This document shows, piece by piece, positions 34,997-38,958 of a stretch of 54,806 nt of DNA; positions within the stretch are counted from its first letter, which is position 1; each line of letters begins with the position of its first letter. This DNA comes from a virus. The position numbers and the translations under genes were made by a program. Location: positions 1 to 54,806 of IMG/VR virus record IMGVR_UViG_3300020205_001884. One strand, 5' to 3'. Below the pieces are notes generated by a model. It did no database searches, had not been told where the DNA came from, and worked only from the letters and a program-made list of their open reading frames with translations.

Positions 34997-35540
34997 GGAT
35001 GCTCCCAAGAACGCAGCAAATTGGTTCAAAGAAAGCATTAAAGGTATTGTTAAAACTCAAAAAGGAAAACCATCCGATTATAAAGAGTTTTTTCAAGATA
35101 GTGAGAAGAATGTACGCAGAAAGCTGCTGGGACAGGTTTTACTTTTCAACTATAGACCCACTTCCAGAATACGGGTATACGATAAGTTTCCATTAGTAAT
35201 AGTCACTGGAATGACGGGAACTGGGTTTTCTGGTATAAATTTGCATTATATCCCACCAATGGACAGATTGAAGATTGTATTGATGATGGACTCTCTTTTA
35301 TATAATAGAAAAGAAGAAGATCCTCAAAAAATGCGTATTAAGATATTGTCATTATTTAATAAGAAAATCTTTGCTAAATATTACGGAACAGTATTTAATC
35401 AATACACCACTGCTAATATTTTTGGAAAACCTAAAATAACGACACCAGAAGAATGGACAAATTTTGCGTTTCTTCCCGTATTCAAGGGAATCAATCCAAG
35501 TAGATTATATTCTCAGATTCTAAAGGAAGTAAACAAATAA
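34962..35540 (+). CDS. gp2-like DNA-end protector/head-tail completion protein
   Basis: The central region has YDKFPLVIVTGMTGTGFSGI followed by NLHYIPPMDRLKIVLMMDSL. I associate this pattern (a short strand, G-F-x-G-x-N-x-H-Y-x-P-P) with the gp2-type DNA-end protector annotated in T4-like phages. In T4, gene 2 adjoins gene 4, and it does so here. There is no ATG at the N-terminus: the frame opens with TTG at 34962 or GTG at 34965, inside the gp4 coding region, so a non-ATG start coupled to gp4 translation is likely. Length is 192 aa versus 274 aa for T4 gp2, so the assignment is moderate. Confidence 0.65.
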   Translation: MVEKNQQPTNSEDAPKNAANWFKESIKGIVKTQKGKPSDYKEFFQDSEKNVRRKLLGQVLLFNYRPTSRIRVYDKFPLVIVTGMTGTGFSGINLHYIPPMDRLKIVLMMDSLLYNRKEEDPQKMRIKILSLFNKKIFAKYYGTVFNQYTTANIFGKPKITTPEEWTNFAFLPVFKGINPSRLYSQILKEVNK

Positions 35541-36088
35541 TGGCAATATCATCATCAGTAACTGGGTTTTCTGCAATAGCACTAGCAACAAATGGATTGG
35601 TTAGACCTAATCGATTTTTTGTAGAAATTAATTTTCCATTTGCAAAAAATAAAGGAGTTGCAAATTTCGATTCATATGCAGAAAGTGTAGAGTTTCCTGC
35701 GATGGCAATTGGAACTGCAGACTATCAATATAACACACATCCCACTCTGAAGGTGCCATATGCAAAACTACCAGCACAGGTGTGTAATATTACATTTAGA
35801 TTAGATGGAAGCGGCAATCCAGTAAAAGGATTATATGAAAACATCGAAGAGATTGTATCGGCTCAGAGTGGAGAATATTTTGTAGCATATGCAGATACCA
35901 TATGGGGTGAAATCAAAATAAATGTAATGAATATACAAGACAAAACAATATACAATTTGACATTATCGAAAGTGTTAGTAACAAATATAGATACTACACA
36001 ATATTCATTCGATGAGAGAGATTCTTACTTGAAGCAAACAGTATCATTTGCATACCAAGAAGCAAAATTTGAAACCGGCGGAGTGTGA
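35540..36088 (+). CDS. Tail tube protein family (gp19-like)
   Basis: At 182 aa it is close to T4 gp19 (163 aa). Family features are the N-terminal NGLVRPNRFFVEINFPF, then SYAESVEFPAMAIGTADYQY, and the C-terminal SFDERDSYLKQTVSFAYQEA, typical of tube-type beta-barrels. Its place beside gp26, away from the usual gp18-gp19 pair, leaves open that it is a tube-like junction protein instead of the main tube subunit. Its ATG shares one base with the preceding TAA stop. Confidence 0.75.
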   Translation: MAISSSVTGFSAIALATNGLVRPNRFFVEINFPFAKNKGVANFDSYAESVEFPAMAIGTADYQYNTHPTLKVPYAKLPAQVCNITFRLDGSGNPVKGLYENIEEIVSAQSGEYFVAYADTIWGEIKINVMNIQDKTIYNLTLSKVLVTNIDTTQYSFDERDSYLKQTVSFAYQEAKFETGGV

Positions 36089-36117: not shown

Positions 36118-36822
36118 ATGGCATTACCCAAGATCGACTTTGTAACATATGAATTGAAATTGCCCTCTAGCGAGCAAAAAATAAAATATAGACCATTCTT
36201 AGTAAAAGAAGAAAAAATTCTTCTCATTGCTGCAGAATCTAAAAACAACGAACAGATTCTATTAGCACTAGAACAAGTAATCACAAACTGTCTATTAGAT
36301 CAAGTTGATATAAGCATCCTACCTTCTTTTGATGTTGAGTATATCTTTCTGAAGATCAGAGAGAAATCTATGGGAGAAATTATAAAGGTAAATATAGTAG
36401 ATCCAGAGGAAAAGAAGAAATTTGAAGTAGATGTTGATCTAAGCAAAGTTATAGTTAAGAGATCGCCAAAACACGAAAAGCGCATAAAGCTATCGGAAAA
36501 TATGTTCGTTGAGATGAAATATCCAACAATGAAAACGATCATGTCAGTAGATGCAACCAAGCCACTCATAGAGAATGGATTTGATATATTGACTAGTTGT
36601 ATCGATAAGATATACGATAAAGATGTTGTGTATGCTTCAAAAGACTACACTAAGAAAGAACTTCAAGAATTTATAGAACAGTTCCCACAAGACATGTACG
36701 ACAAGATTGGTAATTTCTTCGAAACCATGCCAACGCTATATTACGAAAACGACGCAATATCTCCATATACAAATAAAAAGATAAAGGTAGTATTGGACAA
36801 ATTTATCGATTTTTTCAATTAG
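36118..36822 (+). CDS. 26: Baseplate hub assembly protein gp26
   Basis: The first 30 residues (LPKIDFVTYELKLPSSEQKI, then KYRPFLVKEEKILLIAAES) are diagnostic for gp26 of T4-like phages. Length is 234 aa (T4 gp26, 208 aa). gp26 is involved in assembling the baseplate hub. A TAGGAG ribosome-binding site lies 8 bases before the ATG. The last sense codons before the TAG stop are TTT TTC AAT; the run T TTT TTC (36810-36816) is a -1 slippery heptamer in the correct phase, and slippage would extend the protein by 63 residues into the next small gene to give 296 aa. Confidence 0.9.
   Translation: MALPKIDFVTYELKLPSSEQKIKYRPFLVKEEKILLIAAESKNNEQILLALEQVITNCLLDQVDISILPSFDVEYIFLKIREKSMGEIIKVNIVDPEEKKKFEVDVDLSKVIVKRSPKHEKRIKLSENMFVEMKYPTMKTIMSVDATKPLIENGFDILTSCIDKIYDKDVVYASKDYTKKELQEFIEQFPQDMYDKIGNFFETMPTLYYENDAISPYTNKKIKVVLDKFIDFFN
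36810..36816 (+). other. Candidate programmed -1 ribosomal frameshift site (T TTT TTC)
   Basis: The heptamer is in the gp26 frame as X XXY YYZ, two codons before the gp26 stop. After slippage the frame reads through CAA TTA GGG CTT and on to the stop at 37005-37007 without interruption, joining gp26 to the 52-aa gene. No strong stem-loop is apparent just downstream. The same gene logic (short ORF reached by frameshift, then a tape-measure gene) is well known in tail-assembly chaperones of lambda-like phages. Confidence 0.6.
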
Positions 36823-36848
36823 GGCTTACTAGTGAATCTCTTGAAAAC

Positions 36849-37007
36849 ATGTATAGAACCAATTTTATACTAATTCAAGAACACAAGTATAGCCTAAGTG
36901 AATTGGAGAATATGATACCTTGGGAGAGGGAAATCTATTTGAATATGTTAATTAAACATGTCGAGGACATAAATAGAAAAAGAGAGATGCTGAATAAGAA
37001 GAAATAA
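36849..37007 (+). CDS. Small tail-assembly chaperone-like protein (52 aa), expressed alone or as a gp26 fusion
   Basis: The ATG-initiated reading gives 52 residues: MYRTNFILIQEHKYSLSELE, then NMIPWEREIYLNMLIKHVED, then a basic end. The central (M)-P-W-x-R-E-x-Y pattern is typical of the second part (GT-type) of phage tail-assembly chaperones. There is no convincing Shine-Dalgarno before this ATG. The frame extends upstream without a stop through QLGLTSESLEN to the gp26 slippery site, which suggests that the main product is a gp26 fusion made by -1 frameshifting. The tape-measure-like gene starts 1 base after its stop. T4 gp51, an essential hub-assembly factor, is encoded next to gp26; homology to it cannot be judged here. 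Confidence 0.65.
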   Translation: MYRTNFILIQEHKYSLSELENMIPWEREIYLNMLIKHVEDINRKREMLNKKK

Positions 37008-37008
37008 T

Positions 37009-38958
37009 ATGGAAAAAAGCAGTAAACCATTACCAAAGACAAATACCGGAACAAAGGGGTATGGAACTGTAGTTGGTAAAATTGCTAAAATGGTATTAGG
37101 AAATAAGTCTGATATGTCAGCAGCAGCGACTAAAGGTCGTCGACCAGCTAAATCTCCCAGAAAAAGACAGAATAGAAATGTAGCCAAACCCGAAAGAACT
37201 GGTACTCCAGCAGAAAATGCTGAAAGAGTTGTCGGAGGTTCTACTGTAACTAAACCTACTAGTATAGCATCCGGTGATAATTATACTAAAAAAGCACTAG
37301 ACATTTACACCAATCTAGTAAATTTTGTCAAGAAAAGTGTAAATGATTTAGTACAAAAAACAAAAACCATTGTTGGTATGTCCAAAGATACTGGCGTATC
37401 TTCTTCTGTTGGAGCATCCAAAAGCGCATCTGTAAATCCTTCTATAGAAGAATCGCGAGAAACTGCAGAAGGCAAAGAGAAAGAAATTCAATTAGAATCT
37501 GAACAAGTCTCTCTGTTGGAGAAGATTAAAAAAGTATTAGAAAAGATATTGAAGAAGAGCGGTGGTGGCGGTGAAGGTGGGGGAGGACTGCTTTCTTCCT
37601 TGGGAGATGTTGCAGCAATAGCATCATTGGTGCCTGGTAAAGGTAAAATGATGGGTGCATTAGGAAAAAAAGCATTACCAAGGATGGCAGGTCAATTTGC
37701 AGGTATTGCAAAGTCTGGGGGGTTAGCAAAACTAGCCAATGCACGCGGTGCAAGTCCAATAGTAAGTTCATTGGCTAAAAAATCGGATTCTGTAGTTCGA
37801 GGAGTTGGTGCAGTAAAAACTAAGGTGGCAGAGACTGCTACTAAAGCAGCCGGATCAGTTACGAGCAAAGGGGCTCAAATGCTTGGGATGGGCACAAGTT
37901 TAGCTAGTAAAAGTGCCACTACAGCAGGCGCTGCAGGAGCCGCTGGAATAACTGGTGCAGCAGGAGCAGGAGCCGCTGGAATAACTGGTGCAGCAGGAGC
38001 AGGAGCCGCTGGAGCAACTAGTGTTGCTGGAGCAGCGGGTGCTGCAGGCGCGGCAGGTACAGCAGGAAAGAGTGCAGGATTCTTTTCGCGAACATTTAGT
38101 GCTATGGGTGAACTGGCGTCTGCTCCAGCCGCGCTGGCAAAAGCAATTGCTAATCCAAAAGCATTCTTAGCAGGACCTGGTGGCAAATTGATGCTGAAAA
38201 GCATAAAAGGTAGCGCACTGATCTCTGCCGTTTTAGAACCACTCATTGCAGTCTTTACTATAAAAGCCATCCAAGATGATCCAAATATGAGTGTTGAAGA
38301 AAAGAAAAAAGCAATTGGTACAGAATTGGGTGCAAGACTTGGTTCTGGTCTTGGTGCTATCATTGGCGGTGCTGTTGGTACGCTTGGAGGACCACTTGGA
38401 ATGATTGCTGGTGGATTGGTTGGTTCTCTTGGAGGAGAATATTTGGGTGGTGCATTAGTAAACGCAATTGGACCGACTGGTGTGTATGATTTTGCTGCCA
38501 GTATACCCGGTATTGGTCCAAAGATACAGGTAGAGGAAACAAAACCTAAGCAAGATGCTCCTACTGTCCCTGCTGGCCCAGCGCATCCTGAATATGGAGA
38601 CTTACCATCCATGTCTCAGGCAATGCAGAAGCCTACAGTTCCAAGCACAGGAACACCACAGTCCCCAACTCCTGCTACTGGAAGCAGCCCAGTAACGCCT
38701 AGTGCGGTTGCCGCACCATCTGGTAAAGCCTTGCAGACACAAACACAGCAATCTATAAATTCCGGTATACAGCAACAAGCCGAAGCAAGACAACCAATGG
38801 CTTCTACTGCGCCTGGAAATACTGTAATTAATAATTATTACAACACCACAACCAATAGTTCACCTTCTGCTGAATCTAGTGCGCCAAATATGACTGCAAG
38901 TCCAGAACCATCTATGCAAAGTATGTTGGTTGGTAATGTTGGTGGCGTAAGTACATAA
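37009..38958 (+). CDS. Tail tape-measure-like/hub protein, Gly-Ala-rich
   Basis: The 649 residues start with a Lys-rich region, followed by a helical stretch (about 95-180), a glycine run and a long Gly/Ala-rich low-complexity centre with tandem GAAGITGAAGA units (from residue 310). About residues 400-500 are hydrophobic and glycine-rich (LGARLGSGLGAIIGGAVGTL, then MIAGGLVGSLGGEYLGGAL), a probable membrane-active segment. The C-terminus is Pro/Ser/Thr/Gln-rich with TVINNYYNTTTNSS, a style common in tape-measure proteins. The position right after gp26 and the small chaperone-like ORF agrees with a tape-measure or gp29-like hub protein (T4 gp29 is 590 aa). Its length would specify a short tail, so another hub role remains possible. 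Confidence 0.55.
   Translation: MEKSSKPLPKTNTGTKGYGTVVGKIAKMVLGNKSDMSAAATKGRRPAKSPRKRQNRNVAKPERTGTPAENAERVVGGSTVTKPTSIASGDNYTKKALDIYTNLVNFVKKSVNDLVQKTKTIVGMSKDTGVSSSVGASKSASVNPSIEESRETAEGKEKEIQLESEQVSLLEKIKKVLEKILKKSGGGGEGGGGLLSSLGDVAAIASLVPGKGKMMGALGKKALPRMAGQFAGIAKSGGLAKLANARGASPIVSSLAKKSDSVVRGVGAVKTKVAETATKAAGSVTSKGAQMLGMGTSLASKSATTAGAAGAAGITGAAGAGAAGITGAAGAGAAGATSVAGAAGAAGAAGTAGKSAGFFSRTFSAMGELASAPAALAKAIANPKAFLAGPGGKLMLKSIKGSALISAVLEPLIAVFTIKAIQDDPNMSVEEKKKAIGTELGARLGSGLGAIIGGAVGTLGGPLGMIAGGLVGSLGGEYLGGALVNAIGPTGVYDFAASIPGIGPKIQVEETKPKQDAPTVPAGPAHPEYGDLPSMSQAMQKPTVPSTGTPQSPTPATGSSPVTPSAVAAPSGKALQTQTQQSINSGIQQQAEARQPMASTAPGNTVINNYYNTTTNSSPSAESSAPNMTASPEPSMQSMLVGNVGGVST
37936..38013 (+). 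repeat. 33-bp tandem repeat coding for GAAGITGAAGA
   Basis: Two identical 33-bp units (37936-37968 and 37969-38001), each starting GGAGCCGCTGGAATAACTGG, are followed by a third partial copy that diverges after 12 bases. They keep the reading frame and add 11 residues each to the Gly-Ala-rich centre of the tape-measure-like protein. Copy number could vary by recombination and thereby change protein length. Confidence 0.85.

Follow-up and report, generated by a model that had tools for sequence, protein, structure and literature searches.

A probable -1 frameshift joining gp26 to a gp51-like domain in an uncultured T4-like virus and its relatives

In the window, the whole stretch of 54,806 nucleotides that was analysed, the gp26-like gene ends in a slippery heptamer, T TTT TTC, from which the -1 frame continues into a gp51-like C-terminal domain. 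Comparison with related sequences makes it highly probable that -1 ribosomal frameshifting at this heptamer yields both a short form, TAC-N (gp26), and a long form, TAC-NC (gp26-gp51C), as for G and GT of phage lambda. The observation of the slip site and of the open -1 frame is confirmed and lies far beyond chance, because the heptamer is found in all 163 non-redundant relatives counted and only 7 times at 37,854 other codon positions of gp26, and because in these relatives the -1 frame runs on past the gp26 stop over a median of 61 codons (minimum 40), the median for the other two frames being 7. In hundreds of cyanophage and related genomes, the genes that carry the annotations 'baseplate hub' (gp26) and 'hub assembly catalyst' (gp51) very probably make up a single chaperone gene with a frameshift; the extension often goes unnoticed there or is wrongly annotated as a gene of its own. 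The wording 'hub gene' that the original prediction used for gp26 is a historical label only.

Gene layout in the window

The window is a fragment of an uncultured T4-like virus, which is a new member of the T4-like gp26/gp51 chaperone group. The features concerned are the following.

35540..36088, + strand: tail tube-like gene (phrog_45 tail tube, E=8.9e-19), adjoining gp26 on its upstream side
36118..36822, + strand: gp26-like short form, putative TAC-N, 0 frame, 234 aa (PF12322, E=1.6e-56; phrog_150, E=1.3e-60)
36810..36816, + strand: slippery heptamer T TTT TTC (163/163 non-redundant relatives have T TTT TTC/T here, in phase)
36820..36822, + strand: 0-frame stop TAG, one codon past the heptamer (same spacing in 139/163 relatives)
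36816..37007, + strand: -1-frame extension, 63 aa and stop, putative C-terminal domain of the long form (TAC-C; phrog_634, E=3.6e-21)
36827..36889, + strand: possible stimulatory RNA hairpin, beginning 10 nt past the heptamer (MFE -14.9 kcal/mol, z -3.02 for 36817-36891)
37009..38958, + strand: candidate tape-measure gene, 649 aa, named from its position, one base after the -1 stop

The 3' end of gp26 reads GAT TTT TTC AAT TAG, with the heptamer in the X XXY YYZ phase and separated from the stop by the single codon AAT. The original prediction had placed the heptamer at these very coordinates, in phase near the gp26 stop, and had them right. It was equally correct that the -1 frame, which is open from 36777 to 37007, passes without a stop into a short ORF and ends one base before the start of the next ORF, and that this short ORF has no Shine-Dalgarno (SD) motif of its own, none being found at its ATG (36849). 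The -1 frame reads ...FF|QLGLTSESLENMYRTNFILIQEHKYSLSELENMIPWEREIYLNMLIKHVEDINRKREMLNKKK, and the predicted peptide that spans the gp26-gp51C junction is ...DFFQLGLTSESLEN....

The order of genes in the window, tail tube (phrog_45), gp26/51 and a large ORF, would match the lambda tail gene order V - G/GT - H. As in lambda gpG/gpGT, the putative -1 slip is situated near the end of a short chaperone gene and would add a short C-terminal extension, and the site lies between the tail tube gene and the tape-measure position. The slippery sequence of lambda is G GGA AAG, and the gp26 of the window is larger than gpG. The large ORF had been called tape-measure-like, a name that fits its position and that sequence comparison did not confirm: no relatives of the 649-aa ORF at 37009-38958 were found by family search (PF, phrog), by tblastn, in phage records or by comparison with HTVC008M, and the label 'tape measure' is therefore given by position only. 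The product of this ORF is Ala/Gly-rich.

In the mechanism that we propose, a fraction of the ribosomes would slip back by one base at T TTT TTC (we infer both the slipping and its rate), with the two Phe-tRNAs re-pairing from UUU/UUC to UUU/UUU, and the slipped ribosomes would no longer read the UAG that follows after one codon and would continue in the -1 frame. The product would be a minor gp26-gp51C fusion (TAC-NC), of about 296 residues in the window, and the short and long forms together may bind the tape-measure protein and deliver it during tail assembly, as in lambda. This chaperone function of gp26/gp51C is a predicted one. The AF2 model of gp26 (pLDDT 90.4) matched 2ob9, the tail assembly chaperone of HK97, weakly (prob 0.92, E 0.63), and nothing relevant came up when the gp26 profile was compared with PDB sequences.

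Conservation of the slip site and of the -1 extension

The relatives were drawn from viral contigs and phage records, which gave 260 usable loci and, after removal of near-copies, 166. Three of these were set aside, namely L178, whose gp26 is interrupted by an in-frame stop, and the loci of Vibrio phages K364 and D506, leaving 163 that were counted; these relatives are not independent of one another in phylogeny, and the p-value and most of the counts given here ignore kinship. The contig of L178 is 99% identical to the gp26 of HTVC008M, and its stop in the middle of gp26 may reflect a sequence error or a pseudogene.

Comparison with these relatives, which the original prediction had proposed as a check, supports its view that a -1 frameshift joins gp26 and a C-terminal domain of gp51 type in the lambda G/GT layout: with the three loci set aside, the slippery run and the open -1 frame are kept in every relative, the heptamer being T TTT TTC in 136 and T TTT TTT in 27, always in the X XXY YYZ phase. 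The distance from the heptamer to the stop is 0-3 codons in all but six of the 163, and 8 codons in those six. The heptamer is also kept in all 61 clusters of gp26 at 70% amino acid identity and in all 23 at 50%. Its carriers include Kyanoviridae, Pelagibacter phage HTVC008M, Stenotrophomonas phage Ps15, Sinorhizobium phage phiM7, Aeromonas phage Ah1 and Agrobacterium phage OLIVR5, and T TTT TTC was found in Vibrio phages V05 and nt-1 when these were read by hand. As judged from these sequences, the slip site is common to T4-like phages of several families. Five loci considered as exceptions (L020, L026, L053, L066 and L034) were rejected as such; their 0-frame stop merely comes later, and the heptamer is present further upstream.

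The extension itself behaves as coding sequence. It matches phrog_634 ('baseplate hub assembly catalyst', that is, gp51) and also the C-terminal part of phrog_150 (E=1.2e-6), and therefore the phrog_150 profile itself includes fused proteins, T4 gp51 among them. Past the slip site, substitutions at -1 codon positions 1, 2 and 3 number 258, 130 and 701 in 53 independent pairs, and the extension is under purifying selection in the -1 frame. The AF2 model of the C-terminal domain consists of three helices (pLDDT 85.7), the first of which begins at the junction; the alignment for structure prediction was built from sequences of the window and related loci only. In the records of S-CAM4 and DSL-LC03, gp51 is unannotated.

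Signals around the heptamer and alternative explanations

An SD-like match of at least 5 nt lies within 22 nt upstream of the heptamer in 52% of the relatives, in comparison with 10% of control positions. GGAGG stands exactly 10 nt upstream in 51 of the 163, and AAGGA 8-9 nt upstream in 20. Within the SD-like element the Glu codon is GAG in 81 cases and GAA in 32, against 28% GAG elsewhere (Fisher p=2e-21, a value that ignores relatedness), and the ratio is 21:6 across the 70% clusters. An internal SD 8-11 nt upstream of the slip site has been reported as a stimulator of -1 shifting (PMC6321510); in E. coli dnaX it acts together with a downstream hairpin (PMC6321510), a pair of stimulators similar to the signals described here, although dnaX has the site A AAA AAG and encodes an unrelated protein, and although the window shows no SD-like element upstream of its heptamer.

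Downstream of the heptamer, folding was compared with that of dinucleotide shuffles. At +5 the mean z is -1.83, with 40% of the relatives below -2, against about -0.35 elsewhere, and the group also shows excess stability at the hairpin offset. For the 75-nt stretch 36817-36891 of the window, the MFE is -14.9 kcal/mol and z is -3.02, and this downstream fold would be the only stimulator present there. When a universal downstream stem was sought among the relatives by mutual information and helix scans, no helix emerged that is shared or covaries in all of them; the strongest mutual-information couplings, considered as a common stem, were rejected since they look phylogenetic. RNA folding downstream of the slip site is lineage-specific. 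It is likely, by inference, that an SD-like element 8-10 nt upstream and/or folding 5-10 nt downstream raises the rate of slipping in many relatives.

Other explanations of the same arrangement can be weighed against this evidence. The small ORF might be a separate gene, with ribosomes that have ended gp26 reinitiating at its own ATG at 36849 and the T run being incidental; such an ATG does exist in the window, several records annotate a stand-alone gp51, and the TAATG overlap in Vibrio phages K364 and D506 could serve reinitiation. However, in 50 of the 163 relatives no ATG, GTG or TTG comes until 40 nt or more beyond the heptamer, within the domain, the window ATG has no SD, and reinitiation does not require T TTT TTY in every relative. 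Furthermore, residue conservation and the first helix of the model both begin at the junction, 11 residues ahead of this ATG, and a start there would, on the model, cut the first helix because the helix begins at the junction. We consider a separate gene very unlikely.

It is a little less probable still that the frame is changed by slippage of RNA polymerase on the T run rather than by the ribosome. A homopolymer of 6-7 T is indeed present, but six T's are short for transcriptional slippage, the heptamer is always in the tandem-codon phase and ends in C in most relatives (T TTT TTC in 136/163), and the SD-like elements and the RNA folding speak for the ribosome. The least probable explanation, to which we give almost no credence, is that the T run is due solely to conservation of Phe232-Phe233 in the protein. 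These two residues are conserved, but F232 is encoded by TTT in all 163 relatives, and all 163 have T at the wobble position just before it, though the residue to which that position belongs varies (Ser 95, Asn 32, Asp 29, Ala 5, Thr 2). The similarly conserved pair F200-F201, an internal control, is encoded by T TTT TTY in only 7 of 151, TTC TTT being commonest.

T4, other variants and earlier work

Frameshifting is reportedly conserved across several T4-like groups, and T4 is said to use genes 26 and 51. The original prediction described gp26 and gp51 of T4 as separate genes, and so they are, on opposite strands (L095 1803-3229), but T4 gp51 is not simply a C-terminal domain: PF12322 covers its first 201 residues (E=3.9e-52) and phrog_634 matches at its end, and therefore T4 gene 51 encodes the long form in frame. 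T4 gp26 and gp51 are detectable paralogues (E=2e-6), and gene 26 ends TTC TTT GAG, which is not slippery. T4 thus shares with the window the PF12322 family and, at the end of gp51, the same type of C-terminal domain, and differs in that its long and short forms are separate genes, in contrast to the one, probably frameshifted, gene in the window. Comparison with T4 offers a testable route from frameshifting to separate genes.

That no case had been described for a gp26-type gene, as was first believed, is wrong. Vladimirov, Gautam and Davidson (2022, Virology 566:9-15) identified the chaperones for tail assembly in T4-like phages, according to the passages of PMC10274946 and PMC12846349 that cite this work, and the general principle of frameshifting in T4-like chaperones is already published. 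As reported from it in PMC10274946, some T4-like phages have a short gene and a fused long gene with no frameshifting, and PMC12846349 credits it with poly-T slippery sequences in T4-like TAC-N genes. The chaperones described there resemble those of the window in having short and long forms in T4-like phages. Sullivan et al. 2010 (PMC3037559) noted that the first ~200 residues are missing from cyanophage gp51, which the proposed frameshift would explain. For the upstream SD statistics at T4-like slip sites, no match was found in the literature searched; these statistics and the altered site of the Ackermannviridae may be new details.

Six Ackermannviridae (Vi01, Mutine, Magnus, IME250, phiDP10.3 and 2050H1; L271, L276, L277, L278, L279 and L281) have a -1 extension of 49-55 codons with a related gp51-like domain, and their site reads ATT/GTT TTC ATY TRA, with no tandem heptamer. 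It is possible, though we hold it with less than even confidence, that the stimulators are interchangeable, an internal SD of the dnaX kind 8-10 nt upstream in many cyanophages and a downstream hairpin elsewhere, as in the window; that a single tRNA slips at NTT TTC in the Ackermannviridae; and that the variants form a series from the canonical heptamer through a degenerate site to separate in-frame genes, as in T4.

In Vibrio phages K364 and D506 (L269 2218-2225 and L273 2170-2177), the site is CTT TTY with a TAATG stop-start overlap, and the sequence suggests that translational coupling possibly takes the place of frameshifting. Vibrio phage Bakedbeans has a related extension, and its site is T TTT TTC. 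The Ackermannviridae extension occurs in 280 phage records and is frequently unannotated.
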